Shown in pieces: positions 1-10,793 of a stretch of DNA of 10,793 bases; the stretch's first letter is position 1, and each line of letters begins with the position of its first letter. Source of the stretch: Virgibacillus ihumii (GTDB taxonomy: Bacteria; Bacillota; Bacilli; Bacillales; Amphibacillaceae); the NCBI RefSeq assembly GCF_902726655.1, contig NZ_CACVAN010000002.1, positions 1 through 10,793 of the forward strand. Reading direction: 5' to 3'. The notes beneath the pieces were generated by a model that saw only the letters and a list, made by a program, of their open reading frames with translations, searched no databases and was not told the origin of the DNA. Made by a program: the position numbers and the translations under genes.

Positions 1-21
1 AACACGAAGACAATGCTTCAA

Positions 22-27
22 GGGCGC
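22..27 (+). repeat. Isolated GGGCGC core, possible decayed copy of the array element (R0)
   Basis: The core GGGCGC is present and is preceded by CAA, as in other copies. The AATAA block expected 8 nt downstream is not there (ATCCT instead). It is either a decayed copy or chance. The rest of positions 1-121 holds two weak inverted repeats (60-66 with 75-81; 86-96 with 104-112, the latter with a 2-nt bulge) and no gene. Confidence 0.25.
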
Positions 28-121
28 AGAACGACATCCTCTCTCTGATTTAAATCCATTATACCTTGAATAATAGGTATATAGGATTAACACCAGAAAA
101 AATCTGGTTAATAATAATATA

Positions 122-143
122 CGAGGGCGCTTTTCCCTAATAA
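122..143 (+). repeat. Array element copy R1
   Basis: GGGCGC at 125-130, then 8 nt (TTTTCCCT), then AATAA at 139-143. The 19 nt from GGGCGC through AATAA are identical to copy R2. It lies upstream of the ASCH pseudogene. An inverted repeat with 7-bp arms (139-145 with 153-159) overlaps its right end. Confidence 0.85.
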
Positions 144-206
144 TAGCACTAGTATTATTTACACGAGGTTGAAATAAAAGTAAAGCTATGTATGGAGGTT
201 ATAATT

Positions 207-651
207 ATGAATCAGGATGCTCAGGCGTACTGGAATGAATATTGGAAAGATCGAGATCAGCCTCAGTCAGTTAGTGCATGGCAATTTGGAGATGATCCTG
301 ATTATCTCGCACGATTGGTAAGATGGCATTAAAACTGCCACTTGCTCAGGATATATATTTTATGAACTGGAGAATGAACCTCTTCCGACAACAGAAGATT
401 ACAGTATTATATTAAACAGTCACGACAAACCTGTAGCAATCATTAAGACAGTGGAGGTTACACTAACTCCAATGAATGAAGTTACTGAAGAGTTTGCTGT
501 TGCAGAAGGTGAAGGGGATAGGACTTACCAATATTGGTGGAAGGCTCATGAAAAATTCTTTGGAAACGAATTGAATGCAATCGGACGGAAATTTTCTGAA
601 GACATGCTCCTTGTTTGTGAACGCTTTAAAGTGATTGATGTAAAAAAATAA
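207..651 (+). pseudogene. ASCH-domain protein, frameshifted
   Basis: The ATG at 207 follows GGAGG (194-198) with 8 nt spacing. The frame reads 41 codons and stops at 330-332. A second frame, open from about 322 to the stop at 651, continues the same protein. Joining them gives about 148 residues, the usual size of a stand-alone ASCH protein. Just after the joint comes GIKTATCS, which fits the ASCH signature G-x-KTAT. A WW-x-AHEKFFGNEL segment and a FSEDMLLVCERFKVID strand near the end also fit the family. ASCH domains have a PUA-like fold and are thought to bind RNA or modified nucleotides; the substrate here is unknown. The shift lies around 318-322 and looks like loss of two bases from a codon after Leu-Val. 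A GTG at 451 could only start a 66-residue fragment lacking the KTAT motif. A sequencing error remains possible. Confidence 0.75.
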
Positions 652-673
652 GTAAAAGATCCATTCTTAAGTA

Positions 674-695
674 ATCGGGCGCTTTTCCCTAATAA
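674..695 (+). repeat. Array element copy R2
   Basis: GGGCGC at 677-682, 8 nt TTTTCCCT, AATAA at 691-695. It lies 22 nt after the ASCH stop and is identical to R1 over 19 nt. It is followed by a small inverted repeat ATGCG/CGCAT (699-703 with 711-715, 7-nt loop). Confidence 0.9.
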
Positions 696-750
696 AAAAA
701 TGCGTTAATATCGCATATAGGGACTATATTGCTGGAATTATCATTATTTA

Positions 751-757
751 GGGAGGG
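751..757 (+). promoter_or_regulatory. Strong Shine-Dalgarno that places the DUF5412-like start near 763-766
   Basis: GGGAGGG at 751-757 lies 5 nt before ATT 763 and 8 nt before TTA 766. No ATG, GTG or TTG in the frame is near it. It is the main evidence that the protein begins with the upstream hydrophobic helix and not at GTG 874. Confidence 0.6.
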
Positions 758-762
758 TTATC

Positions 763-1296
763 ATTTTAATTTTATTTGGTTACTTAATTTCTTTCATTAC
801 CATCATATTATTTTTAGTTTTATGTGCTAACATAATAACTTCTTTCATTAAAAAGAAACCTTTTCCTAAAAAAGTGCTAGTTGCAACGTTGTCTGGGTTT
901 GTTCTGGTGTCTTCAATCTATGTATATGAAATGTACTTTTTTACATTTAGTGAAATTGATAGAGGATCCACTCAAAAGGGACCTGGACCTGTAACATCAC
1001 CCACGGGGGAATATACAGCTAGTGCTTATTATGAATTATATGGTGGTGCAGCAGGCGGAGTTAATGTATGGGTGGAAATAACGAATGACGATGAAAATGA
1101 TAAAAAGAAAACAATATATTATAGTGACGCAAATAAAAGTATCAGTTTAGAATGGGCAAATGAAGATACGCTATTCATTAAAAACGAAAAAAATAGTATG
1201 AAATTAAACGTGGAGAAAGAGATTTATCACGATAGAGGATTAGTCTGCCAGAGTTTACTGATGAAAGATGAGTATGAAACTTGCTACCAAAACTAA
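763..1296 (+). CDS. DUF5412-like membrane-anchored protein; start codon rare or lost
   Basis: The frame is open well upstream of the first conventional start (GTG 874). It encodes a hydrophobic N-terminal helix (about residues 2-24), a basic KKKPFPKK linker and a second hydrophobic segment (about 38-55), then a soluble extracytoplasmic domain. That domain has GPGPVTSPTGEYTASAYYE, GGAAGGVNVWVEIT, an IYYSDA strand and a LEWANEDTLFI strand, which I associate with the DUF5412 family; the function is unknown. A strong Shine-Dalgarno GGGAGGG sits at 751-757, but the codons at a suitable distance are ATT (763) and TTA (766). I give the ATT as the nominal start, making about 177 residues. TTA at 766 would be an ideal TTG start with one base changed. 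Starting at GTG 874 would remove the first helix and has no good ribosome binding site. The gene lies between copies R2 and R3. Family assignment is from memory of the pattern, moderate confidence. Confidence 0.65.
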   Translation: MLILFGYLISFITIILFLVLCANIITSFIKKKPFPKKVLVATLSGFVLVSSIYVYEMYFFTFSEIDRGSTQKGPGPVTSPTGEYTASAYYELYGGAAGGVNVWVEITNDDENDKKKTIYYSDANKSISLEWANEDTLFIKNEKNSMKLNVEKEIYHDRGLVCQSLLMKDEYETCYQN

Positions 1297-1312
1297 TATC
1301 TTTTATTACATT

Positions 1313-1334
1313 ATCGGGCGCTTATCTGTAATAA
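1313..1334 (+). repeat. Array element copy R3
   Basis: GGGCGC at 1316-1321, 8 nt TTATCTGT, AATAA at 1330-1334. It lies 16 nt after the DUF5412-like stop and is followed by a small inverted repeat ATAC-CC-GTAT (1341-1350). Confidence 0.85.
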
Positions 1335-1406
1335 AGATCGATACCCGTATTGTACATAAGAGTCATTTAATGGAATAATCGTATCGGTCAGAACGGGGGA
1401 AGAACG

Positions 1407-1865
1407 ATGACAGTAACATTAAAAACAATGAGTTCAGAAGAATTTCAACAATATTTGAGTTATGCAATTGATAACTTTGCAAACGAGCAAATTAAATCTG
1501 GAAATTGGAAGCAAGAGGGAGCAATCAGTAAGGCAGCGAAGGAACACAAACATTTACTTCCTGACGGACCAAATACCGATAACAATTATTTATTTACAAT
1601 TCGTGATGGAGACTTAAAGGTTGGAATGGTATGGCTAGCAAACAAGGATGATAATAAGGGTTTCATTTATGATATTAACATTTGGACAGGCAATCAAGGT
1701 AAAGGTTATGGAAAACAAGCAATGAAGCAAGTTGAAATCATAGCCAAAGAGATTGGATTGAAAATGATAGGACTTCATGTCTTTGGTCATAACAAAGTGG
1801 CAAGGAGCCTATATGAACAACTAGGATATGTTGAAACAAATATAAAAATGGAAAAATCATTATAG
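1407..1865 (+). CDS. GNAT family N-acetyltransferase
   Basis: Encodes 152 residues, a normal length for a single-domain GNAT enzyme, which transfers an acetyl group from acetyl-CoA to an amine. The acetyl-CoA loop is visible as QGKGYG at about 97-102 (family pattern Q/R-x-x-G-x-G/A), preceded by the beta-4 strand GFIYDINIW and followed by helix alpha-3. Motif B is at about 129-141: N129, then LYEQLGY with Tyr136 in the position of the usual general acid. The N-terminal half (beta-1 to beta-3, about 1-80) is intact. The ATG at 1407 follows a GGGGGA site at 1395-1400. The substrate cannot be told from sequence; small-molecule, protein and antibiotic acceptors are all known in the superfamily. 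It is flanked by copies R3 and R4 with only short gaps. Confidence 0.9.
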   Translation: MTVTLKTMSSEEFQQYLSYAIDNFANEQIKSGNWKQEGAISKAAKEHKHLLPDGPNTDNNYLFTIRDGDLKVGMVWLANKDDNKGFIYDINIWTGNQGKGYGKQAMKQVEIIAKEIGLKMIGLHVFGHNKVARSLYEQLGYVETNIKMEKSL

Positions 1866-1876
1866 GTTATTGAGGA

Positions 1877-1898
1877 ATTGGGCGCGCTAATCGAATAG
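1877..1898 (+). repeat. Array element copy R4
   Basis: GGGCGC at 1880-1885, 8 nt GCTAATCG, AATAG at 1894-1898. It begins 11 nt after the GNAT stop, and the hydrolase ribosome binding site starts 2 nt after it, so the element fills nearly the whole gap. Confidence 0.85.
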
Positions 1899-1913
1899 AT
1901 AGGGGGATGGAAA

Positions 1914-2819
1914 GTGGGAAGAACTTCAAACGAAAAATTAATTCATATTCGGGGAAAAGATATGTACGTAGAAGTTCATGGTTCGGAAAATAAACCACCT
2001 CTTTTATATCTACATGGAGGACCTGGTGAAAGTTGTTACGAGTTTTGTTATCACCAGGGGAAAAGGTTACATGAAGATGTTAGACTTATTGCGGTTGACC
2101 AGAGAGGTGTTTGTCGATCAGAGGCGATTGATAGAGAGGAAAGTTTTTCTTTAACTGATATTGTGATGGACTGTGAGGAGCTAAGAAAAGAATTGGGTAT
2201 TAAAAAATGGGCTTTGTTGGGGCATTCTTTTGGTGGTTACTTATGCCTTTTATATGCCACCATTTTTCCAGAGTCAGTTAGCCGAATCATTTTTGAATGT
2301 CCCACATTTGATTTTGGACTAACTACAAGAAATTCGTTAAGAAAAGCATCAAAATTGTTCAAAGATGAGGGAAAGAAAAATTTAGCAGAACAATGTTTAA
2401 TGCTATCCAAATCTGGTAAAACAACCAAAGATTTAATGTTGGAATTTATGAAGATACGTCCTGAATTAGGTGAAAGGGGAATGGAGATACACGTTCATAA
2501 TTTTGATAATCCAACTGATTATTCATCATACACAGATGATGAATGGGAGCAGTTTTTCAAAAAAACTGATATACATAATGATCGATTATTGGATGGTGAT
2601 GAAATGTTTAATTCGTTGCTTCCAAGGCTTAAGGAAGTTACCCAGCCCGCTATTTTAATAAACGGCCAATATGATCCGGTAACTTGTGATGAACAGATTA
2701 AAACCTTTCTCGCTGATGTGGAGCATAGTGAAATAGTTACACTAAAAGATAGTGGTCATTTCCCTCATTTTGAAAAACCAGAAAGTTTCAAAGAAATTGT
2801 AGTTGACTTTTTACAATAA
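1914..2819 (+). CDS. Alpha/beta hydrolase, prolyl-aminopeptidase-like (S33)
   Basis: A 301-residue alpha/beta hydrolase, full length for the family. HGGPG (34-38) supplies the oxyanion-hole loop and DQRG (62-65) follows; this pair is typical of S33 proline iminopeptidases and close relatives. The nucleophile elbow is GHSFGG with Ser105. The acid is most likely Asp254 in NGQYDPV and the base His282 in DSGHFPHFEKP, giving a complete triad. A cap region of about 130-230 lies between core strands 6 and 7. There is no signal peptide, so the enzyme is probably cytoplasmic. The start is GTG 1914, 6 nt after AGGGGGA (1901-1907). Peptidase versus small-ester hydrolase activity cannot be settled from the motifs. 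It lies between copies R4 and R5a. Confidence 0.9.
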   Translation: MGRTSNEKLIHIRGKDMYVEVHGSENKPPLLYLHGGPGESCYEFCYHQGKRLHEDVRLIAVDQRGVCRSEAIDREESFSLTDIVMDCEELRKELGIKKWALLGHSFGGYLCLLYATIFPESVSRIIFECPTFDFGLTTRNSLRKASKLFKDEGKKNLAEQCLMLSKSGKTTKDLMLEFMKIRPELGERGMEIHVHNFDNPTDYSSYTDDEWEQFFKKTDIHNDRLLDGDEMFNSLLPRLKEVTQPAILINGQYDPVTCDEQIKTFLADVEHSEIVTLKDSGHFPHFEKPESFKEIVVDFLQ

Positions 2820-2837
2820 TTTTGTCGATGTTCCGTA

Positions 2838-2859
2838 AACGGGTGCGATTCCCGAATTG
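2838..2859 (+). repeat. Array element copy R5a (GGGTGC variant)
   Basis: GGGTGC at 2841-2846, 8 nt GATTCCCG, AATTG at 2855-2859. One base differs in the core and two in the right block. It begins 18 nt after the hydrolase stop. CGGG/CCCG within it could form a 4-bp hairpin. Confidence 0.7.
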
Positions 2860-2862
2860 AAT

Positions 2863-2880
2863 GCGGCTTTTCCCTAATGA
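2863..2880 (+). repeat. Array element copy R5b (degenerate core)
   Basis: GCGGC at 2863-2867, then TTTTCCCT and AATGA (2876-2880). The 11 nt TTTTCCCTAAT match R1 and R2 exactly. It lies only 3 nt after R5a, so this gap carries two head-to-tail copies. Confidence 0.65.
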
Positions 2881-2904
2881 GCACAGTTTAGTTAAAGAAG
2901 AAGT

Positions 2905-2910
2905 TATAAT
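2905..2910 (+). promoter_or_regulatory. Probable -10 box upstream of the lipoprotein gene
   Basis: A perfect TATAAT lies 80 nt before the lipoprotein ATG. No good -35 is visible 16-18 nt upstream, so the promoter call is tentative. If used, it would place a roughly 75-nt leader ahead of the gene containing the inverted and direct repeats at 2928-2968. Confidence 0.4.
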
Positions 2911-2927
2911 ATAATATGATTAGAGTA

Positions 2928-2942
2928 ATCCTTGGAAAGGAT
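2928..2942 (+). repeat. Inverted repeat in the lipoprotein leader
   Basis: ATCCTT (2928-2933) and AAGGAT (2937-2942) are perfect 6-bp arms around a 3-nt GGA loop. The repeat lies between the TATAAT and the ribosome binding site, so it could be an operator or a leader hairpin. No T-run follows, so it is not a terminator. Confidence 0.45.
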
Positions 2943-2946
2943 CTTA

Positions 2947-2968
2947 TCCTAACTAAATCCTAACTAAA
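2947..2968 (+). repeat. Perfect 11-bp tandem direct repeat
   Basis: TCCTAACTAAA occurs at 2947-2957 and again at 2958-2968 with no spacer, 9 nt before the AAGGAG of the lipoprotein gene. It could be a regulator half-site pair or a simple duplication. Confidence 0.6.
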
Positions 2969-2990
2969 CGCACAATGAAGGAGACGATAT

Positions 2991-3662
2991 ATGAGACACC
3001 TATATCTGTTTGGGGGTTTAATTTTGATGTTTGCGCTACTATTTGGGTGTTCCTCCGAACCTCAAACAGCTGACTCTAACGATGCCGATGAACCAATGAA
3101 AGAAAATTCTTCAAGATCTACAGAACTTTCCAAAAAACAAAACGCAACTAAAAAAGACAAAGCTACATATGAAGAAAATCAAGAAATGAATAATGACAAC
3201 AATCCTCGCTCAAAAACAAAGTCAGATAGTGTTTCTCAAGAAAAAATGGAGCAATTAAAGAAAACATTGAGAACTTATATATTTGATGAGTATATGGATA
3301 GCTCCGATTATGTTTATGCAAAGGGAATTAATTGGACTAAGAATTTTTATGACAATCTAACCGCTAAAGAAATTTGGACTGTTATGGAGGAATATAAAGA
3401 AAAGAATAACGGTAAGGAAGGGACATTGTTTGATAAAGCTAATTATCTTTCGGTAAATGCACCTATAAAAGATAATTGGAAAGAGTTATTTTTAGTAAAT
3501 TGGAAAAACAGCCCCTACTCAGGAAATGATAACGAAATCGTAAAGATGATTGATAAAGGTGATGTAGTGTGGGTTTATACAGAACAGATTTCTTATACAG
3601 GTGAAGAAAACAATTATCCTTATATCGTTTTAGATAAGAGAACTGGTTTTTGGCACGGATGA
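2991..3662 (+). CDS. Putative lipoprotein, function unknown
   Basis: Encodes 223 residues. The N-terminus is a lipoprotein signal peptide: MRH, a hydrophobic stretch, then a lipobox LFGC with Cys20 as the expected lipidated residue, followed by SSEP. Residues about 21-80 are a polar, Lys/Glu/Ser/Asn-rich linker typical of Bacillus lipoproteins, lifting the domain off the membrane. A globular part of about 85-223 follows, rich in Trp and Tyr (INWTKNFYDN, WTVMEEYKEK, LFLVNWKN, VVWVYTEQISY) and ending in the strand-turn PYIVLDKRTGFWHG. I do not recognise the domain. AAGGAG (2978-2983) lies 7 nt before ATG 2991. It probably acts on the outer face of the cytoplasmic membrane. Copies R5a/R5b precede it and a degenerate copy follows. 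Confidence 0.85.
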   Translation: MRHLYLFGGLILMFALLFGCSSEPQTADSNDADEPMKENSSRSTELSKKQNATKKDKATYEENQEMNNDNNPRSKTKSDSVSQEKMEQLKKTLRTYIFDEYMDSSDYVYAKGINWTKNFYDNLTAKEIWTVMEEYKEKNNGKEGTLFDKANYLSVNAPIKDNWKELFLVNWKNSPYSGNDNEIVKMIDKGDVVWVYTEQISYTGEENNYPYIVLDKRTGFWHG

Positions 3663-3682
3663 GAAACAATTTTAATTCATAC

Positions 3683-3704
3683 AACGGGTAACATAGACTA
3701 GTAA
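3683..3704 (+). repeat. Very degenerate possible element copy (R5c)
   Basis: AAC-GGG is followed by TAA in place of CGC, then 8 nt and AGTAA (3700-3704). The gap geometry fits the other copies, as does the position 20 nt after a stop. The sequence match alone is weak. Confidence 0.3.
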
Positions 3705-3720
3705 TAGGCAGATGCGAAAT

Positions 3721-3870
3721 ATGAAAAAAGGGATAGCTTTGTTGTTTATGGGATTAGTAATTTTTATGTTAGGTATATATTTATCCATTCACTGGGTTGT
3801 GATTGGAACCTTTCTTGGCGTTGGTGGAGGAATCATAATCGGTAGCAGCTCTTATTTTAAAATTAAATAA
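3721..3870 (+). CDS. Small two-helix membrane protein (49 aa)
   Basis: Encodes 49 residues beginning MKKGIALLFMG. Two hydrophobic segments (about 4-22 and 24-43) are joined by the short IHW turn. The second is glycine-rich (GTFLGVGGGIIIG), and the tail YFKIK is basic, so both ends are probably cytoplasmic. No family recognised. An in-frame ATG at 3712 would add three residues, and neither start has a strong Shine-Dalgarno; only a weak AGG lies near 3706-3708. Support comes from the membrane-protein composition and the position between flanking genes. Copy R6 lies 34 nt downstream. Confidence 0.55.
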   Translation: MKKGIALLFMGLVIFMLGIYLSIHWVVIGTFLGVGGGIIIGSSSYFKIK

Positions 3871-3903
3871 TATTGCTTTCCGAAACAACTAACTTATGTC
3901 GCT

Positions 3904-3925
3904 AACGGGCGCGGTTATCGAAGGT
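3904..3925 (+). repeat. Array element copy R6
   Basis: AAC then GGGCGC at 3907-3912 and GGTTATCG (8 nt). The right block is AAGGT instead of AATAA. The core is exact and the right block is weak. Confidence 0.65.
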
Positions 3926-4280
3926 ATACGGGGCAAATGATCCAATTTTAATTTTAGACATCAGCATATATAATCCCTATGAACAGACAGGCTTTATTTT
4001 TTATTGGCTAGAAGACGTTCAAACAAAACCCTGGGAACGCAGACTCCTAAATAGTTGAGCCACTGGATAATAAAGCATCGCCTCAAACGATCCTAAGACC
4101 ATTCTCCGGGAGTGTTCCGAAGCAATAAATCTGCAATTTGTATTCTTTGCTTAGCCCGGAATACAAGACTTAGATTCATTTGTCAAGGAACAAAACAAAT
4201 TGGAAATTGACATCAACTGTGAATTAAAACTTATTATACGAGGATGGGTACATTATGCAAAAATTTTCGCAAGAGGTTAT
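3921..4280 (+). pseudogene. Decayed protein-coding remnant, unrecognised
   Basis: One reading frame (codons in phase with 3957) gives protein-like text broken by four stops: a stretch with DPILILDISIYNPYEQTG and FIFYWLEDV up to a TGA near 4056, two adjacent TAA codons near 4070, then TILRECSEAINLQFVFFA, a TAG near 4156, and DLDSFVKEQNKLEIDINCEL running into the start of the next gene. All four parts lie in the same frame without indels, which fits a gene dying by point mutation. No start or family is recognisable. The alternative is chance openness in AT-rich DNA. It directly follows copy R6, where the other gaps have a gene. Confidence 0.35.
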
Positions 4281-4983
4281 TAATAAACTAAAACATTATG
4301 TCTATACTTATGCTGAGCCGATAACGGATGAGGTGTTTTATGTTGGAAAAGGCGTTGGTAATCGCGTGTTTTATCATTTGACTGATACGGAAGATACTCC
4401 CAAAACCCGTATGGTTAAAAGTATCCGGGAAAGGGGAATGGAACCGAAAATTGAAATACTCACTCATGGCCTGGAGGATAGTGAAACGGCATTAAAAGTA
4501 GAGGCTGCGGTAATTGACTTAATTGGGAAAGAAAAATTAACCAATGCAGTACGAGGATTTCAAAGTGGGGTGTATGGAAAAGTTGGTTTAAACCAACTCA
4601 TTTCTCATTATGATCGGGAAGTGGCTAGTATAGAGGAACCGGTGATACTAATTCGATTGAATAAAATTTTCCGCTATGATATGACTGATATAGAATTATA
4701 TGATGCAACAAGAGGTGCTTGGAAAATAGGGAAAGATCGAGAGAAAGCAAAGTACGCTTTTGCGGTATTTGATGGAATTGTACACGAAATATATAATGTA
4801 GTATCTTGGTTTAAGGCAGGAAGTACGTTTAATACCCGGGCAGATGCTAACGAGGAAAATCGCTGGGAGTTTGTTGGAAAGATTGCAGATGATTCTGTAC
4901 GAGTAAAATACCTCCAAAAGTCGGTAGAGCAATATTTAACAAAAGGAGCACAAAACCCAATTAAATATGTAAACATCAAATAA
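4255..4983 (+). CDS. GIY-YIG domain protein (COG3680/LEM-3-like) with an extra C-terminal domain
   Basis: Encodes 242 residues. The N-terminal part is a GIY-YIG nuclease module of the COG3680/LEM-3-like type: the first strand YVYTYAEP (15-22), FYVGKG (28-33) as the YIG strand with Gly31, then Arg37 in GNRVFYHL as the expected catalytic Arg. Glu83 in the helix KVEAAVIDLI is the expected metal ligand, and LTNAVRGFQSG closes the domain near 105. All key residues are present, so it could be an active nuclease. Residues about 128-242 form a second domain (ILIRLNK, TRGAWKIG, AKYAFAVFDGIVHEIYNV, WFKAGSTF, WEFVGKI, and the end GAQNPIKYVNI). The order of elements suggests a PUA/EVE-like reader fold, which is my inference. 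ATG 4255 follows AGGATGGG (4241-4248). The role is unknown; DNA processing, defence or element biology are possible. Confidence 0.8.
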   Translation: MQKFSQEVINKLKHYVYTYAEPITDEVFYVGKGVGNRVFYHLTDTEDTPKTRMVKSIRERGMEPKIEILTHGLEDSETALKVEAAVIDLIGKEKLTNAVRGFQSGVYGKVGLNQLISHYDREVASIEEPVILIRLNKIFRYDMTDIELYDATRGAWKIGKDREKAKYAFAVFDGIVHEIYNVVSWFKAGSTFNTRADANEENRWEFVGKIADDSVRVKYLQKSVEQYLTKGAQNPIKYVNIK

Positions 4984-5073
4984 TAACCAAGGAACGGAAA
5001 GAAGATGTTAGTTTCTTAAAAATTATCAAAAACAATAATTAAGAGTTAAACGAAAATTAATTTGCTTTTGCTG

Positions 5074-5094
5074 ACAGGGCGTTAGTAGTAATGT
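5074..5094 (+). repeat. Array element copy R7 (degenerate)
   Basis: ACA then GGGCGT at 5077-5082, with a TAATG block slightly displaced from the standard spacing. It lies 48 nt upstream of the good copy R8, making a second gap with two copies. Confidence 0.4.
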
Positions 5095-5121
5095 ATTAAT
5101 AATATACTTTTACCTTCAAGA

Positions 5122-5143
5122 ATTGGGCGCGATTCACTAATAA
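5122..5143 (+). repeat. Array element copy R8
   Basis: GGGCGC at 5125-5130, 8 nt GATTCACT, AATAA at 5139-5143. It is followed directly by a small inverted repeat GGTGT-CA-ACACC (5145-5156). The gap 4984-5221 otherwise holds nothing I can support. Confidence 0.85.
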
Positions 5144-5221
5144 TGGTGTCAACACCGCATACTGGATCAGATTGTTGAACAGATGGGAGTGCATTCTTCG
5201 TAGCTTGAATGAGGTGAGTAA

Positions 5222-5401
5222 ATGCTTAAACATTTTTTGTTTTTTATAATTATGTTAGTTGGTTTGTCTATATGGAATCTTGTGTTTCCTTCACATAGTC
5301 AAAGCATATTAGAAATAATAGGTACTTCAATCGTTGCTACACTTGCTTATTGGTTTATAAGCTGGCCAGAGTCTAAAAAAAACAAATCAGATGAAGACTG
5401 A
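5222..5401 (+). CDS. Small two-helix membrane protein (59 aa)
   Basis: Encodes 59 residues starting MLKHFLFFIIML. Two hydrophobic segments (about 4-23 and 29-49) have a short polar loop PSHSQS between them and a charged tail SKKNKSDED that should be cytoplasmic. ATG 5222 follows AGGTGA (5212-5217) at a short 4-nt spacing. No family recognised. Support is the ribosome binding site, the membrane-protein pattern and the position between copies R8 and R9. Confidence 0.65.
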   Translation: MLKHFLFFIIMLVGLSIWNLVFPSHSQSILEIIGTSIVATLAYWFISWPESKKNKSDED

Positions 5402-5416
5402 TTGTTTTTTAAAACA

Positions 5417-5438
5417 ATTGGGCGCTGTTCCGGAATAA
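5417..5438 (+). repeat. Array element copy R9
   Basis: GGGCGC at 5420-5425, 8 nt TGTTCCGG, AATAA at 5434-5438. It begins 15 nt after the preceding stop and is followed by the palindrome CTAG-GCGT-CTAG (5441-5452). Confidence 0.85.
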
Positions 5439-5495
5439 AACTAGGCGTCTAGCCCTGCAGAAAAGGATCATTTTGCGGCAAAAGAGGTGAATAGT

Positions 5496-5819
5496 ATGGG
5501 AACCGAAACTGCTAGTGATTGGCTAAAGGATAAGGGACTATCAAATGCTGATATTGATTTTGTTGAAACGATATTGACTTTCACGTCTACTACCAAGGAA
5601 CAAAAAAACAAATTAGTTGAGATTAATAAAACACTTCAAACGTCTTTTCCCGATAAAAAGGCAGAGATTGATCCAAACTTAACACTTTCGCAATTTGATA
5701 AAATACTGCGGGATAATGGGATAGCTATTGATGTAATTGAAATGCTCACAAGGTATAAAGAACAAGGTTTATGCACGAATTTATGTAATCGATTATTAGA
5801 AGGTCAGCTGTATCATTAA
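5496..5819 (+). CDS. Hypothetical soluble protein (107 aa)
   Basis: Encodes 107 residues from ATG 5496, which lies 6 nt after AAGAGGTG (5482-5489). The in-frame GTG at 5487 falls inside that ribosome binding site, so I reject it as the start. The sequence is polar and looks all-helical: TASDWLKDKGLSNADIDFVE, a KEQKNKLVEINKTLQ helix, LTLSQFDKILRDNG, IDVIEMLTRYKEQG, and a final CTNLCNRLLEGQ with a C-x3-C pair at about 94 and 98. There is no signal peptide or membrane segment. I do not recognise a family; a small regulatory or immunity-type helical protein is possible but unsupported. Its stop codon TAA is the first part of copy R10. Confidence 0.75.
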   Translation: MGTETASDWLKDKGLSNADIDFVETILTFTSTTKEQKNKLVEINKTLQTSFPDKKAEIDPNLTLSQFDKILRDNGIAIDVIEMLTRYKEQGLCTNLCNRLLEGQLYH

Positions 5820-5839
5820 CGGGCGCCATTCTTGAACAA
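5817..5839 (+). repeat. Array element copy R10, overlapping a stop codon and next to an RBS
   Basis: The TAAC at 5817-5820 holds the stop codon of the upstream gene. GGGCGC at 5821-5826, 8 nt CATTCTTG and AACAA at 5835-5839 follow. The last two bases begin AAGGGGA (5838-5844), the ribosome binding site of the next gene. The entire intergenic space is therefore the element plus an 8-nt spacer. Confidence 0.85.
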
Positions 5840-5851
5840 GGGGATTATTTT

Positions 5852-6244
5852 TTGCTAAAAAAACGTTTGACATTAATATTTTTATCTGGGTTGTCTATGT
5901 CGGTATTTTATTTATTGATGGAATCCTTTCCATTTAGCCTTTCGTTTGAAGCAATATACATTGTTTTCTTTTTTGGATTAGTGTTTGGTGGATCGTATAG
6001 TTTATTCGCTTTACCAATCCAAATATTGTTAAATAAATATCTTGATGCTCGTAAGTTCAATATTACATATTTTGTAGCATATCTATTAGGATCTTTAATT
6101 GTATATTTAGTAATTTACGGGGTCTTTAATAATTACGAATCTTTTTATGCAAACTTGGAATTTTATTTGTATGTATTTGTTTCAGCATTGTTTTTTTGGA
6201 CATGGGATTCAATAATTATGTGCAGGGACTCAATTTCGGCATGA
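5852..6244 (+). CDS. Four-helix integral membrane protein, function unknown
   Basis: Encodes 130 residues, highly hydrophobic, with four predicted helices (about 5-24, 33-57, 70-91 and 102-125). MLKKR at the N-terminus and the basic stretch NKYLDARKF between helices 2 and 3 suggest a cytoplasmic N-terminus and loop. There is no cleavable signal or recognisable domain. The start is TTG 5852, set by AAGGGGA (5838-5844) with 7 nt spacing. Only copy R10 separates it from the preceding gene, so the two should share a transcript. It ends at TGA 6244, 31 nt before copy R11. Confidence 0.75.
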   Translation: MLKKRLTLIFLSGLSMSVFYLLMESFPFSLSFEAIYIVFFFGLVFGGSYSLFALPIQILLNKYLDARKFNITYFVAYLLGSLIVYLVIYGVFNNYESFYANLEFYLYVFVSALFFWTWDSIIMCRDSISA

Positions 6245-6275
6245 GGATATTGTTGAATGAAATTGCCACAATACG

Positions 6276-6297
6276 AACGGGCGCAGTTGGGGAATAA
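6276..6297 (+). repeat. Array element copy R11
   Basis: GGGCGC at 6279-6284, 8 nt AGTTGGGG, AATAA at 6293-6297. It lies in the 242-nt gap before the YfkM-like gene. Confidence 0.85.
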
Positions 6298-6397
6298 AGA
6301 CCAGCTCCCAAATGCCATTGTAGTGCACGTTTATGTAACACGATAAGGTAGAAGGGAACAAGTGCCTGTCAGTTAGAGCATCGTTATTTGGTTCGTG

Positions 6398-6403
6398 TAT
6401 AAT
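6398..6403 (+). promoter_or_regulatory. Possible -10 box upstream of the yfkM-like gene
   Basis: A perfect TATAAT preceded by TCGTG lies 84 nt before the ATG. No convincing -35 is seen at 16-18 nt. I also looked for a SigB promoter, since B. subtilis yfkM is a general stress gene; GCTTAA (6422) with GGGCAG (6437) has a spacing too short for that class. Confidence 0.35.
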
Positions 6404-6486
6404 ACGGTTCATGAGCATACTGCTTAATAAAGTTATGGGCAGTCTGCTAGAATATATTCGAGAATGATAAAGGGAGGAAGTGCTAT

Positions 6487-6999
6487 ATGAGTCGACACAT
6501 TGCAGTCCTTGTAACAGACATGGTAGAAGAAATTGAATTAACTGATCCTGTGAAAGCTTACAAAGAAGCTGGGCATACGGTAGATATTATCAGTAATGAA
6601 GCAAAAAAAACCATCAATGGCAAAAATGGGGACGAAATACAAGCAGATAGAGGCATAGATGAAGTAAATGCAAACGATTATGATGCATTACTCGTACCTG
6701 GCGGGTTTTCTCCTGACTTACTACGTATTAATCCGAAGAATAGTGAGTTTGCGAAAACATTTTTCCAAGATAATAAACCCATATTTTCAATTTGCCATGG
6801 TCCACAGTTTCTCGTTAATACAGACCAACTAAAAGGTAGAGAGCTAACAAGCTTTGTTTCCGTAAGAAAAGACTTGGAAAATGCAGGAGCAACTGTAAAA
6901 GATGAAGAAGTAATCGTAGATGGAAACCTTGTAACAAGCAGAACACCTGATGATCTTCCTGCATTCAATCGCGAATCTCTAAAGCTTTTAGAAAAATAA
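6487..6999 (+). CDS. yfkM: DJ-1/PfpI family protein, YfkM (general stress protein 18)-like
   Basis: Encodes 170 residues, the standard length of the short DJ-1/PfpI class. The nucleophile elbow is SICHGPQ with Cys103 followed by His104. The conserved acidic position lies in the early loop MVEEIEL (Glu14-Glu17). PGGFSPDLLR (71-80) is the family's glycine-rich strand-turn. The end TSRTPDDLPAFNRESLKLL is very close to what I recall of B. subtilis YfkM. Members act as cysteine-dependent deglycases, glyoxalases or peptidases on damaged proteins or aldehydes in the cytoplasm; the substrate here is not deducible. AAGGGAGG (6470-6477) lies 9 nt before ATG 6487. A strong terminator follows, so it is the end of its transcript. 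Confidence 0.9.
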   Translation: MSRHIAVLVTDMVEEIELTDPVKAYKEAGHTVDIISNEAKKTINGKNGDEIQADRGIDEVNANDYDALLVPGGFSPDLLRINPKNSEFAKTFFQDNKPIFSICHGPQFLVNTDQLKGRELTSFVSVRKDLENAGATVKDEEVIVDGNLVTSRTPDDLPAFNRESLKLLEK

Positions 7000-7013
7000 T
7001 TCGTCGATCGTAT

Positions 7014-7056
7014 AGGGGGGCTGTTAATCATGCAGCCTCTCTTTATTTTTTATTTG
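7014..7056 (+). terminator. Rho-independent terminator after the yfkM-like gene
   Basis: The arms 7014-7023 (AGGGGGGCTG) and 7033-7042 (CAGCCTCTCT) pair over 10 positions, two of them G-T, around a 9-nt loop. TTTATTTTTTATTT follows. It starts 14 nt after the stop codon. Confidence 0.85.
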
Positions 7057-7100
7057 ATAATAGATAAAGCGCTCATGCCCATCTGCCATGATCTTCCTCA

Positions 7101-7122
7101 AACGGGCGCTTTTCTTGAATAA
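7101..7122 (+). repeat. Array element copy R12a
   Basis: AAC, GGGCGC at 7104-7109, 8 nt TTTTCTTG, AATAA at 7118-7122. It is the closest copy to the overall consensus and lies 45 nt after the terminator. Confidence 0.9.
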
Positions 7123-7140
7123 GGCGCTCTTTCTTAATTG
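7123..7140 (+). repeat. Array element copy R12b, abutting R12a
   Basis: GGCGC at 7123-7127, 8 nt TCTTTCTT, AATTG at 7136-7140. It starts on the base after the AATAA of R12a, giving a head-to-tail pair. It is the last copy in the window. The following 7141-7329 holds no gene I can support. Confidence 0.65.
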
Positions 7141-7340
7141 GACCATAGGTATGGGAATTAGTTCTCGGCAAATTCCTTATTCCACCTTTTCGAGGGGTTG
7201 TGCAAAAATACCCTTATTGCGACAAGCGTATTATGTGGTTAGCCGGTTTTTTTCTGGTTGCCCTATTTTTTTAGGTACTATATTTGTAGTGAACAACATA
7301 AACATTCTATGGCAGAAAATTATTTCTATAGGAGGTTTCC

Positions 7341-8321
7341 ATGGATCAAAAGGATCAAAGTCGTCAATTAGACCAAATAAAGCAAATGCAACAAATGTTT
7401 AAAGAGAACATGAAAACTCAACCTTATCCAATGTACCCTAACTATGGGAAAATCACACGTTACGAAGAAATTCCGATCAGTGTTCCGGAACAACGACAAC
7501 TCCAGCACCCGGGTGTCGAGGAACTTATGGTACCCCTCCCAATTATCGAAAACCCGAACTACAAAGGGAGCGAGAAATTATGTGGAAAGGTTGCACTCAT
7601 TACAGGCGGTGACAGTGGTATTGGTGCAGCAGCAGCGATTGCGTTCGCTAAAGAAGGCGCAGATGTTGCTATTTCATACTTAGATGAACATGAGGATGCA
7701 AATAGAACAAAAACGAGGATTGAACAACTCGGACAACGTTGTTTTCTAATGCCTGGTGACTTGCGAGACAAACAACAGTGTATCTCTATTGTAGAACAAA
7801 CAGTAAATACGTTTGGACGTCTCGATATTCTTTGTAACCACGTTGGTATCCAATTTCAACAACTAAGCCTGCTTGACATTACAGATGAGCAATTCGATGA
7901 TACCTTCAAGGTTAATATATACTCTCATTTTTACACAACAAGAGCAGCGCTTCCTCATTTAAAACCAGGCAGCTCAATCATTGGCACAACTTCAGTGGTG
8001 ACGTATGTAGGTGAGCAGCAAATGATTGATTATACGGCCACAAAAGGCGCAATAGTTGGCTGGACACGTGCCTTGGCCAAAAATGTCGTGAAACAAGGGA
8101 TCCGAGTCAATGCCGTCGCTCCCGGCCGAATTTGGACTCCACTTATTCCAGCAAGTTTCTCGTCAGACCAAGTCGCTGTATATGGAGCATTTAATCCAAT
8201 GGAACGAGTTGCCCATCCATTTGAACTCGCACCAACCTTTGTCTATCTTGCTTCTGATGATTCTCGTTTTGTTACTGGTCAAGTTCTTCATGTTGATGGG
8301 GGAGAATCCACACATTCCTAA
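7341..8321 (+). CDS. SDR family oxidoreductase (YdaD/YhxC/YhdF type, long N-terminus)
   Basis: Encodes 326 residues, with the extended N-terminus (about 1-80, [27 protein letters not shown]) that marks the Bacillus general-stress SDR group. The Rossmann fold begins at GKVALITGG, with TGGDSGIG at 88-95 as the NAD(P) loop. GDLRD (139-143) is the adenine pocket. The usual NNAG is CNHVG here (165-169). Catalytic residues are most likely Ser218, Tyr231 and Lys235 (YTATK), with Asn192 completing the tetrad. [16 protein letters not shown] (255-270) and [11 protein letters not shown] close the fold. It is a cytoplasmic NAD(P)-dependent dehydrogenase or reductase of unknown substrate. AGGAGG (7330-7335) lies 5 nt before ATG 7341. 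A small gene follows 18 nt after the stop. Confidence 0.92.
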
Positions 8322-8339
8322 TGGAAAGGGGTTACCATT

Positions 8340-8504
8340 TTGAGGTATGAATTTAATCCACAAGTAAAGCTATTGCTAGTAAACCATTCAAATGAAAAAG
8401 TTAAGATGGTCTATATGGAGGATTCCTGGCCCATGCCAAAAATAGGACTGAGACCACCATACTATTGCTACCCAAGTTACGAGCTGAATTATCCAATAAT
8501 CTAA
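8340..8504 (+). CDS. Small hypothetical protein (54 aa), TTG start
   Basis: A short frame starting at TTG 8340 is supported by AAAGGGG (8325-8331) with 8 nt spacing. It encodes RYEFNPQVKLLLVNHSNEK, then VKMVYMEDSWPMPKIGLRPP and a Tyr-rich end YYCYPSYELNYPII. The strand-like, aromatic composition is protein-like and there is no membrane segment. It begins 18 nt after the SDR stop and ends 12 nt before the shared terminator, so it would be co-transcribed with the SDR. I do not recognise it. Confidence 0.5.
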   Translation: MRYEFNPQVKLLLVNHSNEKVKMVYMEDSWPMPKIGLRPPYYCYPSYELNYPII

Positions 8505-8516
8505 CATTTTATAAAA

Positions 8517-8558
8517 AAGCCTGCAGTAATGATTATGGAAAACCATTACTGCAGGCTT
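8517..8558. terminator. Bidirectional terminator between convergent genes
   Basis: A perfect 15-bp stem (8517-8531 with 8544-8558) encloses a 12-nt loop. On the − strand it is followed by TTTTTT (complement of 8511-8518), a strong intrinsic terminator for the dehydrogenase gene, whose stop lies about 30 nt away. On the + strand the tail is CTTCTTCT, weaker but probably serving the SDR unit. Confidence 0.85.
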
Positions 8559-8588
8559 CTTCTATCCTATTACAGGATTAACCCTCTT

Positions 8589-9722
8589 TTACGGCTTTAA
8601 AATGACCTTGACGCAATTATCCTGATGATCATTAAAGATGCTATACCCTTCACTTGCATTCTCAAGAGGGATTTTGTGTGTAATAATTTCTTTGGGATCA
8701 AACTCTTTATTCATAATCTTTTCAAACAATTTAGACATGAAGTGAATAACTGGGGCCTGCCCCATCTTAAGCATAATATTCCTTATCCAAAAGGCACCTA
8801 ATGGAAACGCATTGTAGTTGCTGCCGTAAACGCCGGTTAGTTGAACCGTTCCAAATTTCCTGACAGCTTTTGTTGAAATTTGAATAGGTCCAAGTGTTCC
8901 GCCTTGCAGCTTTAGTTTTTGTTCCATATATTCCAAAGGTGATTTTTTTCCATCCATGCCCACACAATCAATGACAACGTCTGCCCCGCCATGAGTGATT
9001 TCCTTTAAATACTCGCCCATGTCATCGTTTTTGGTGAAATCAAACACTTCAACATTGTTGATTCGTTTTGCATGGTTTAAACGATAACCAAGGTGGTCAA
9101 TAGCGATTACACGTTTTGCGCCTTCCATCCATGCGAACTTTTGTGCCATCAGTCCAACAGGGCCACAGCCAAGCACAATAACGGTATCGTCCTTTTTCAC
9201 TCCGGCATTTACCACACTCCAGTAGGCAGTGGGAAGAACATCAGATAAAAAGAGAAGGGATTCATCTTCCAGTTCACACGATTCAGGAACAACAAAAGGG
9301 GTGAAATTCCCAAAAGGCACTTTTAAATACTCAGCCTGGCCGCCCGGGTGGTTTCCGTACTTTTCGGAATAACCGAAATACCCTCCTGAATCGTAATGCG
9401 GATTGGAATTGTCACATTGACTTTCCATCTCATGCTGGCAATAAAAGCACTGTCCACATGAAACATTGAAAGGAACAACGACACGGTCCCCTTTTTTTAC
9501 CTTTGTCACTTCAGGGCCGACTTCTTCGACAATCCCCATTGGTTCGTGACCAATGACATATCCTTCAGGTAACGGGATATTCCCTTGATACAAGTGTAAA
9601 TCAGACCCGCAAATGGCTGTTGAAGTTATTCGAACAAGAACGTCATCTTTTTTCTCAAGCTTTGCGTCCGGTACCTCTTTAACAGTTACATTATTCGGTC
9701 CTTGATAGGTTACAGCTTTCAT
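8589..9722 (-). CDS. Zinc-dependent medium-chain alcohol/aldehyde dehydrogenase (AdhB/FDH-like)
   Basis: Encodes 377 residues from ATG 9722 (− strand), 6 nt after GGAGTG (9734-9729); the longer start at 9761 adds 13 residues with no ribosome binding site. Catalytic zinc ligands are Cys38 (CGSDLH), His59 with Glu60 (GHE) and probably Asp161 (LSDVLPTAYW). The structural zinc site is Cys89, Cys92, Cys95 and Cys103. The cofactor loop is GCGPVG (185-190) and Asp209 ends the second strand, favouring NAD. PHYDSGGYFGYSEKYGNHPGGQAEYL (written here as family marker, about 108-132) places it in the glutathione-independent formaldehyde-dehydrogenase-like group that includes B. subtilis AdhB. It would oxidise a small alcohol or formaldehyde-type substrate in the cytoplasm. 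It is a single-gene unit with the terminator at 8517-8558. No clear promoter was found upstream. Confidence 0.92.
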   Translation of the reverse strand: MKAVTYQGPNNVTVKEVPDAKLEKKDDVLVRITSTAICGSDLHLYQGNIPLPEGYVIGHEPMGIVEEVGPEVTKVKKGDRVVVPFNVSCGQCFYCQHEMESQCDNSNPHYDSGGYFGYSEKYGNHPGGQAEYLKVPFGNFTPFVVPESCELEDESLLFLSDVLPTAYWSVVNAGVKKDDTVIVLGCGPVGLMAQKFAWMEGAKRVIAIDHLGYRLNHAKRINNVEVFDFTKNDDMGEYLKEITHGGADVVIDCVGMDGKKSPLEYMEQKLKLQGGTLGPIQISTKAVRKFGTVQLTGVYGSNYNAFPLGAFWIRNIMLKMGQAPVIHFMSKLFEKIMNKEFDPKEIITHKIPLENASEGYSIFNDHQDNCVKVILKP

Positions 9723-9817
9723 TTTCTTCACTCCAATCCAAAATAAATGGCTTTCAATCATTTAGACTGCCCGTCTCAAACGGAATGCATGATTATCTAT
9801 AGTATTTCACTTACTGA

Positions 9818-10117
9818 TTTAAATCATTCGTCCTCATAACTAATAATATTGCAAACTGTAGGTTTATAAAAAAGTTCAATCAAAAATATTCTATAATCGT
9901 TGATTTTACACCACATGGTAATTTTGTTATAAAAAAGATTGATCAAAACGTATTATTAGATAAGGAGTATACAGTAATTTTTATAATAAAGTTTAATCGC
10001 TTCTTATATAAAATCATTGATGATATATCAATGATTGGTTGGCAATCTTCCTTTTTAACGGTGCATCTTTGTTTTAAACAGTGGATCTTTTTTATAAACG
10101 GTGTAACTTTATTTTAA
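9818..10117 (+). other. Startless 99-codon open frame in an otherwise gene-free gap
   Basis: Between TGA 9815-9817 and TAA 10115-10117 one + strand frame has no stop for 99 codons, despite very AT-rich DNA. Its first ATG is only at about 10031, and no TTG or GTG start with a ribosome binding site is seen before it. Part of it reads like protein (KYSIIVDFTPHGNFVIKKID, then NVLLDKEYTVIFIIKFNRF), while the end coincides with the palindrome and the tandem repeat. It may be the C-terminal remnant of a lost gene or chance. The rest of 9723-10207 holds no other gene I can support. Confidence 0.3.
10012..10036. repeat. Palindrome with 10-bp arms
   Basis: AATCATTGAT (10012-10021) and ATCAATGATT (10027-10036) are perfect inverted repeats around GATAT. 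No T-run follows. It could be an operator for a dimeric regulator, or part of a mobile-element end next to the tandem repeat. Confidence 0.7.
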
Positions 10118-10119
10118 AC
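10052..10119. repeat. Tandem repeat with a 20-bp period, about 3.4 copies
   Basis: AACGGTG (10057), AACAGTG (10077), AACGGTG (10097) and a broken AACCCAC (10117) recur exactly every 20 bp. Each of the first three is followed by an ATCTTT or AACTTT block and a T-rich stretch ending in TAAAC. The unit is close to TTTTAAACGGTGNATCTTTT. Confidence 0.75.
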
Positions 10120-10207
10120 CCACACCAGGAGAATAATTTTCCCCTTTCAGAAAAAGATTGGCATACATATTTTCTGTAGGGAATAAACCTTTAAACCTTT
10201 CTAATGA

Positions 10208-10642
10208 TTCCGCGACGGACAGATAGTGGGACTCATTGACGTTGAGTACGAAAAAGAAGAGCGTACGGTTTGTTCAAGAGGAGAAGGGTTAGGCGGGATG
10301 ATTTGGCATATAGCCGTCCATCCTGACTTTTCTCGCCAAGGAATCGGAAAACAGTTATTGGATATTGCTGTAAATAAAGCTAAAGCAATTGGATTAAATC
10401 GTTTGGAAGCTTGGACTAGGGACGATTTTTGGGTTCAAAATTGGTACGAGAAAATGCATTTCAAGAATGTTGATTCCTATTATCATATCTATTTTGAAGG
10501 TGATGAAATGAATCAACAAATCCAGTGTGCAACGCCAAAGCTTTATTTAGTGAATGCCTTTGCACATTATGTCGGGGACGACATAGAGCAATTTAAAAAT
10601 AAGCGTATTCACCAGTGTGTTTGCTTTGAAAAAACCTTTTGA
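10208..10642 (+). pseudogene. GNAT acetyltransferase lacking its N-terminal part
   Basis: The frame is open from after a TGA at 10205-10207 to the stop at 10642, and the first possible start is GTG 10226 (138 residues) with no ribosome binding site. The text FRDGQIVGLIDVEYEKE is the middle of a GNAT fold (strands 2-3). Then come beta-4 MIWHIAVHP, the acetyl-CoA loop RQGIGK (37-42 counted from the GTG), EAWTRDDFWVQNWYEKMHF with the motif B Tyr, and a C-terminal extension ending FAHYVGDDIEQFKNKRIHQCVCFEK, which I recall from a Bacillus GNAT subfamily. In that subfamily about 50-60 residues precede this point. Here they are missing or scrambled. The frame upstream of TGA 10205 (reading LSNDSATDR) may be leftover sequence. 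I infer a 5'-truncated, probably non-functional gene; a short product from GTG 10226 cannot be excluded. Confidence 0.65.
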
Positions 10643-10724
10643 TATTACGCTTTCTTAATCAGTATCTACCGCAATACCAGCCAATAGCTGTCAACAATTA
10701 AAGGTAAAAAAGTTTAAAAAAACA

Positions 10725-10733
10725 TGTTATACT
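10725..10733 (+). promoter_or_regulatory. Possible extended -10 promoter for a gene beyond the window
   Basis: TG-T-TATACT at 10725-10733 matches the extended -10 form used by sigma-A. The region 17 nt upstream is only AT-rich with no clear -35. No start codon with a ribosome binding site follows before the window ends, so the target gene is outside. Nothing else is seen in 10643-10793. Confidence 0.4.
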
Positions 10734-10793
10734 AAAATCGGACATGCCAAATAGCCTTACCGTTGAATTGATAAGGTTTCAAAAGATTGGCAA

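Follow-up and report, generated by a model that had tools for sequence, protein, structure and literature searches.

A short intergenic repeat, GGGCGC-N8-AATAA, recurs in one orientation along a 10,793-nt stretch of the Virgibacillus ihumii genome (contig NZ_CACVAN010000002.1, positions 1 to 10,793), here called the window. Comparison with other genomes suggests, with a probability that we put at about 0.83, that the repeat serves as the site of recombination in an integron-like gene-cassette system found in Bacillales and apparently independent of integrons. Breakpoints at the core, mobility of whole cassettes, one-way arrays, linkage to a recombinase and covariation within a hairpin all emerge from these comparisons.

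GGGCGC occurs 11 times in the window, always on the + strand, and is embedded in a recognizable element in all cases but one, the bare copy at 22. Dinucleotide shuffles contained 1.1 copies on average, and none of 200 reached 11. GGGCGC-N8-AATAA, with up to 2 mismatches allowed, matches at 12 places (shuffle mean 2.25, 0/200 reaching 12). Seven matches are exact (125, 677, 1316, 5125, 5420, 6279, 7104), two carry one mismatch (AATAG at 1880, AACAA at 5821), and three carry two, two of these lying on the - strand and one within an open reading frame (ORF) at 2545. The ten exact cores with a surrounding element and a GGGTGC variant at 2841 make up a series of 11 copies from 122 to 7122. An earlier reading of the window, made from the sequence only, had described ten cores plus variants, a spacer of 8 nt fixed in all but the most degenerate copy (that at 3907), and a match over 19 nt between the first two copies (125 and 677, GGGCGCTTTTCCCTAATAA), and had judged chance recurrence very unlikely; the counts bear it out on each point. 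Its statement that the copies are intergenic and on the + strand also stands, as they sit between likely genes and are co-oriented with them, save that the first two bases of the copy at 5818 belong to the stop codon of ORF 5487-5819, and that a mechanically called ORF, 7088-7402, crosses the copy at 7101. The pattern is not the whole element: full copies run on into an inverted repeat, carry TNTTCMRCA upstream, and some feature a second box. An Rfam scan of the window returned four weak matches, all below the cut-offs, and none of them coincides with a copy of the element.

Exchange of flanks takes place at the core. In a set of 420 distinct elements, 66 pairs have the upstream 150 nt (the tail) in common and 81 the downstream 150 nt (the head), one pair sharing both; the other side has no detectable similarity in 63 same-tail and 80 same-head pairs. 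These pairs group into 24 tail and 35 head clusters. In a non-redundant set, in which each element is used once and identity is at least 88% (15 same-tail and 13 same-head pairs), head agreement starts at +3 and tail agreement reaches the core, so that the exchange falls within the 9 bp AWMGGGCGC (A-WM-GGGCGC). Since GGGCGC is almost invariant, the switch point within it is not resolvable. Whole cassettes recur too: eight distinct ones, matching in both head and tail, reappear at equal or nearly equal length (333, 404, 679, 825 and 532/533 bp, for example) and share no neighbour to the left or right; for two of them the copies all come from Lentibacillus jeotgali. They account for 10 of the 14 rows of the table of shared cassettes, the rest comprising two rows in which the same loci reappear, one with overlapping stretches of one locus and one with a 90/44-bp unit. 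Flank exchange and recurrence of whole cassettes support the first option of the sequence-only reading, a recombination site delimiting gene cassettes. Its other options, a site for protein binding only, for RNA processing or for translation, would not predict that unrelated flanks are swapped at the core.

The DJ-1/PfpI cassette of the window was followed in detail by searching window DNA 6200-7180 against 12 Lentibacillus genomes. Eleven longer matches (89–100%) were found in 6 of them. Nine, spread over the six genomes, start at window 6276-6284 and stop at 7109-7124, and are 98.1–99.9% identical to the window; the match breaks off at 7109, or runs on to 7122-7124 if the following head is by coincidence similar. 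The remaining two (91% and 89%) cover the cassette only in part, and extrapolation was used to place their flanks. Of the 66 pairs that can be formed among the window and the 11 loci, one (L205/L215) has a common upstream flank, none a common downstream flank. The flank common to L205 and L215 is a group II intron lodged in the core (RF02004 75.8 bits, RF00029 42 bits), and for this reason insertion at a foreign secondary site, considered for these two loci without GGGCGC on the left, was dropped. The same intron end followed by C-nn-n6-AATAA marks 9 of 15 distinct 3' junctions, two of which lead into the PfpI head. Elsewhere in the window, the match of the ASCH cassette to G005 begins at 125, and the region 60-130 recurs at two places of G166 (97–99%), one of which (L240) shows a head unlike that of the window.

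Group II introns were also observed in their own right. One sits in a cassette-site core of L088, at about 3490-4348 (start inferred), and its 3' part is matched in 10 of the 12 Lentibacillus genomes. Such core-inserted introns resemble introns using integron sites.

Sites of this type are concentrated in one order. A 22-base core pattern, scanned over 84,980 species genomes, matched 87 stretches; among the 80 of these that were listed, 75 are from Bacillales, the other five being from SAR116 (2), Pantoea, Bdellovibrio and Lachnospiraceae. The core pattern is also present in one viral contig. In 11 genomes reached via these loci, a 19-base pattern with at most one mismatch gave 402 matches versus 37 for the reversed control, 30 of the 37 residing in a single genome (G003). 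Over 150 genomes from this order, a looser pattern gave 547 matches versus 78 for the control. Four additional Lentibacillus genomes had strand-wise counts of 62/6, 14/42, 73/86 and 6/51 (controls 2/1, 3/5, 4/3 and 9/6). The copies are clustered, co-oriented and more numerous than matches to the reversed pattern, and the random placement at background frequency that the sequence-only reading had named as its refutation is not seen.

Sites in G161, and in the part of G162 that was mapped, form mainly one-way blocks, with a few opposite sites in G162. L. jeotgali features 129 register-checked sites in 19 stretches, picked for holding sites, and none of the 19 has both orientations. In loci L088-L118, 148 cassettes were delimited by neighbouring sites at distances of 200–2500 bp; their median length is 694 bp. 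Their longest ORF is co-oriented with the site in 125/148 cassettes, or in 102/116 when only those are counted whose longest ORF measures at least 80 amino acids (aa). The weight matrix used in the scans turned partly palindromic over iterations, and opposite-strand echoes were therefore merged by best score. Some minus-strand matches in the element scans, including the count around recombinase genes given below, are such echoes, a few of them entering the count together with their partner, as at 6433 and 6502 of L166. In the latter count, some sites are second-box-like (GGGCCA). Reversed-sequence controls of the matrix yielded 3 matches and, after merging, none in 40 stretches.

A PF00589 profile search of 8 genomes identified a family of tyrosine recombinases of about 280 aa in array contigs. 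The gene is intact and follows a core at 168–205 bp in L119 (B. piscicola), L120 (P. marinus) and L121, is found inside the array in G163 and G166, just behind five sites in G165 and about 3 kb from the nearest site in G161, and is broken in L. kapialis and L. halodurans. Relatives number 1208 at E <= 1e-30, some labelled 'integron integrase', and seven plasmid records carry one. Residues R141, K165, H232, R235, H258 and Y267 (L119 numbering), the tyrosine-recombinase catalytic set (R, K, H-x-x-R, H, Y), are invariant in 23/23 aligned sequences. The XerA-type model NF040815 scores 215–221 bits (cut-off 220), the closest solved chains are XerA and XerD, with IntI4 much lower, and XerA ranks first, at a TM score of about 0.5, against a moderately confident AlphaFold model (pLDDT 75, pTM 0.55). 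By residues and fold the family belongs to the tyrosine recombinases and is XerA/XerD-like.

Members at E <= 1e-90 reside in 26 of the 150 genomes (35 matches). The surroundings of 20 of the 35, from 18 genomes, were compared with 20 control stretches taken from 12 of the genomes, at distances of about 90 kb to 1.1 Mb: 81 sites occur in 390,284 nt around the recombinase (15/20 stretches), 6 in 400,000 nt of control (2/20). In the 12 Lentibacillus genomes the gene is intact in four (G161, G163, G165 and G166). A leader conserved at 5 loci (L231-L234, L119) precedes the gene by about 100 nt; it combines the half-site GATTGTTGAATAA with an inverted repeat around AATCAA...TTGATT, and could be attI-like or an operator. 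Sets of three adjacent tyrosine recombinase genes, resembling trios of the RIT (recombinase in trio) type, were noticed in several of the 8 genomes and at L107:7987-10427, in an array contig. These trios were set aside as catalyst because the contig that carries them in G001 has no listed site.

The consensus of 93 aligned copies reads TNTTCCRCA-AACGGGCGC-nn-TTCY-n-K-AATAA-GGA-nn-GCGCC, the positions fixed by the search pattern being uninformative. Full copies feature the inverted repeat GGCGC..TTC..AATAA..GAA..GCGCC. A second box, GGGCCA-N7-GAATAA, lies about 45 nt downstream in 138/487 elements (masked matrix), with a consensus that repeats the left part of the site in reverse complement. 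The inverted repeat, the upstream TNTTCMRCA and the second box place the pattern first noticed within a site of about 75–80 nt. At least 7 of 8 fixed pairs of the inner hairpin form in 147/420 elements, versus 13/420 when the downstream part is shuffled. Of these 147, 141 have a regular core, and in them the two free positions of the hairpin pair in 99 and 94 cases (after shuffling 64.3 and 56.5 on average, at most 83 and 74). The hairpin is often followed by T, as in GCGTCTTTTT. Folding of four site strands as DNA gave z values of -1.6 to -3.2, the lowest-energy structures including the outer stem in one and the inner hairpin, in some form, in all four; these data were not used as evidence. 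Core letters vary among recombinase-bearing genomes (GGGGGC, GGGCGC and GGGTGC in L163, L164, L169 and L180), which may reflect co-evolution of site and recombinase.

In the mechanism that we propose, a cassette would span from one core to the next. Its head would be the hairpin GGGCGC-nn-TTC-n3-AATAA, in some cases with a second half-site, followed by usually one gene and by a tail with TNTTCMRCA-A at its end. Recombination of one site with another would swap all DNA downstream of AWMGGGCGC and preserve the direction of the array, so that cassettes could be excised, inserted and reshuffled as units, presumably with circular intermediates and some role for the hairpin. The likeliest catalyst would be the linked XerA-like recombinase, acting on two inverted arms (TTATTCCRCAA ... 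TTCYGGAATAA) that flank an overlap no longer than 8 bp. Letters +1 and +2, which do not strictly track either flank in the few pairs at hand, would be compatible with a double-stranded reaction that leaves a heteroduplex overlap. We hold it likely, on a broader view, that Bacillales possess a gene-capture platform of their own, evolved from a XerA-like recombinase independently of integrons, with more than 100 exchangeable cassettes in the chromosomal arrays of one genome, shared between species, marked by lineage-specific site letters and often outliving the recombinase.

Several observations weigh against a cassette system run by this enzyme. Neither excision nor a circle was seen, and no clean pair of empty and filled sites was found among the shared-cassette comparisons (two candidates proved to be a single tandem-like repeat present in overlapping loci, and were dropped). 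Letters +1 and +2 do not strictly track either flank. Kinship among elements inflates the counts of hairpin covariation, and the outer arms do not co-vary, whether taken within the same junction (n=138) or the same cassette (n=91); a model in which a cassette tail pairs with the second box at the head of that cassette was rejected, as was pairing within a junction. The recombinase is assigned to the sites by linkage only. Five of the 20 recombinase stretches contain no site and four only one (Lentibacillus matrix), and 39 of the 81 linked sites come from three stretches. Genome-wide the association is significant but modest (mean 5.6 vs 3.2 sites, p = 0.001, 150 genomes), and 15 genomes with at least 6 sites have no member at E <= 1e-90. 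Among the 12 Lentibacillus genomes, the gene is partial or broken in 4 and absent (E <= 1e-60) in 4, including the array-rich L. jeotgali.

The large arrays of L. jeotgali, devoid of the family, would be expected if host XerC/XerD, or another recombinase, moved the cassettes and the XerA-like gene were a passenger. Tyrosine recombinases scoring as XerC/XerD-like are present in 8/8 genomes searched, and Xer-driven modules are described in Acinetobacter. We regard this as unlikely, given the local linkage (81 vs 6 sites), the presence of recombinase copies, some broken, inside or beside arrays, and the site letters that differ among recombinase-bearing genomes, as co-evolution would suggest. The plasmid modules of Acinetobacter are alike in that genes are bounded by Xer-type recombinase sites. 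Those sites, called pdif, are short XerC/XerD sites (11-6-11) in alternating orientation, served by host enzymes; in these details they differ from the one-way arrays, longer hairpin sites and linked recombinase described here. It is still less probable that dispersed, terminator-like repeats recombine by ordinary homologous recombination. Repeats can act as homology, and T residues often follow the hairpin, but the switches fall within one 9-bp stretch, very short for RecA, and the units are co-oriented and mostly contain one main ORF. Hardest to credit is that each cassette is a separate small transposon inserting beside others: units do have fixed ends and occur at several places per genome, but neighbours share a single core, and their ends are freely combined with those of unrelated units.

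Chromosomal integrons, or superintegrons, and clusters of attC sites lacking integrases (CALIN) provide the closest likeness, with small gene cassettes arranged head to tail, a tyrosine recombinase beside some arrays and a structured site. Arrays in genomes without an intact recombinase recall CALIN in particular. Group II introns reside in the sites described here, and group IIC introns are associated with integrons (PMC7923331). Cassettes lie in one orientation, as in integrons, apart from the few opposite sites in G162. The head-to-tail cassettes, the recombinase beside arrays, the introns in the sites and the 'integron integrase' label of some homologues would favour a true integron, with sites that are diverged attC and an enzyme that is IntI. 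The system was not filed as such, because it departs from integrons in IntI score, attC consensus and hairpin side, and we find the idea quite improbable. The IntI model TIGR02249 gives 102.0, 106.1 and 103.1 bits for three members, in two split stretches and far below the cut-off of 265, and the closest solved relatives are, as said, XerA and XerD. The attC consensus is RYYYAAC ... GTTRRRY; the full motif is found in 2/420 sites (0/420 after shuffling) and the core RYYYAAC in 0/420. Unlike attC, a structured site at the 3' end of the cassette gene, the hairpin lies 5' of the gene and travels with the downstream gene. The host range differs as well, the arrays being in Bacillales: in the IntegronFinder 2.0 paper (PMC9024848), one complete integron (Limnochorda pilosa) and a few CALIN are reported for all Firmicutes, and large cassette arrays, known as an integron trait, are nearly unreported in that phylum. 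A review (PMC8618304) counts Firmicutes among the integron-bearing phyla.

Bcr1 and other stem-loop repeat families of Bacillus are likewise structured and present in tens of copies. Two Bacillus repeats tabulated in PMC2267715, Bant-1 (72 bp) and Bhal-1 (74 bp), are close in size to the site. Passages of that paper mention no cassette or recombinase link, and 'integron' and 'recombin' are absent from its main text. As Bant-1 and Bhal-1 are tabulated without sequence, the bare repeat may have been seen before. No match to an already characterised element, which would have spoken against the sequence-only reading, was seen, these two being known by description only. In titles and abstract openings from searches of the open-licence literature, a scope mostly exclusive of subscription papers and preprints, no description of Bacillales cassette arrays was recognised. 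If the cassette reading is true, a second, apparently independent cassette solution would exist in a large group of bacteria from soil, sea and food, and with it a new path by which genes pass from species to species. It would involve a large and so far unread stock of small accessory genes (acetyltransferases, toxin-antitoxin-like genes, one macrolide-phosphotransferase-like gene), and folded sites, strand choice and gene orientation could be assessed, in a natural test, as essential features of integrons.

Table 1. Cores and putative cassettes of the window.
Feature	Position	Strand	Remarks
Recombination core 1 (CGAGGGCGCTTTTCCCTAATAA)	122..143	+	5' boundary of ASCH cassette
Cassette 1: ASCH-domain protein, frame broken	122..673	+	PF04266; 93% DNA match in G005, L. 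kapialis
Recombination core 2 (ATCGGGCGCTTTTCCCTAATAA)	674..695	+	Tail as in L110:9136, head different
Cassette 2: DUF5412 protein	674..1312	+	PF17428
Recombination core 3 (ATCGGGCGCTTATCTGTAATAA)	1313..1334	+	Exact GGGCGC-N8-AATAA
Cassette 3: GNAT acetyltransferase	1313..1876	+	PF00583; window 1364-1884 at 90% in G005, L. kapialis
Recombination core 4 (ATTGGGCGCGCTAATCGAATAG)	1877..1898	+	AATAG, one mismatch
Cassette 4: alpha/beta hydrolase	1877..2837	+	PF00561
Recombination core 5	2838..2859	+	GGGTGC variant
Cassette 5: lipoprotein-like 223-aa ORF and 52-aa ORF	2838..3903	+	ORFs; no Pfam family for the 223-aa ORF
Recombination core 6	3904..3925	+	3' part degenerate
Cassette 6: GIY-YIG (LEM-3-like) protein	3904..5121	+	PF22945
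Recombination core 7 (ATTGGGCGCGATTCACTAATAA)	5122..5143	+	Exact GGGCGC-N8-AATAA
Cassette 7: 59-aa membrane-like ORF	5122..5416	+	ORF
Recombination core 8 (ATTGGGCGCTGTTCCGGAATAA)	5417..5438	+	Exact GGGCGC-N8-AATAA
Cassette 8: 110-aa ORF	5417..5817	+	ORF; no Pfam family
Recombination core 9 (AACGGGCGCCATTCTTGAACAA)	5818..5839	+	AACAA, one mismatch
Cassette 9: UPF0715 protein	5818..6275	+	PF17094
Recombination core 10 (AACGGGCGCAGTTGGGGAATAA)	6276..6297	+	5' boundary of DJ-1/PfpI cassette; cross-genome identity begins here
Cassette 10: DJ-1/PfpI protein, 825 bp mobile unit	6276..7100	+	PF01965; cross-genome copies
Recombination core 11 (AACGGGCGCTTTTCTTGAATAA)	7101..7122	+	3' boundary of DJ-1/PfpI cassette; last window copy seen

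The ASCH gene (window 208-651) is split between frames, and corresponds to a single 162-aa ORF in L. kapialis. A near-identity search of the window against phages gave no match, and against plasmids matches only in the SDR gene region 7267-8504 (7 records) and in a short dehydrogenase stretch, 9400-9635 (9 records). The SDR-family gene, located directly to the right of the array, is 91–95% identical on the seven plasmid records (Halobacillus, Peribacillus, Priestia and one Staphylococcus aureus). The end of the window, 10672-10793 (about 120 bp), recurs at 78–98% in many Lentibacillus contigs, several of which are array contigs. Among cassette genes elsewhere, read from translations only, some resemble a macrolide phosphotransferase (L092:597+), a ParE/RelE-type toxin (L112:4688+) and a MazF-type toxin (L110:10336-10710).

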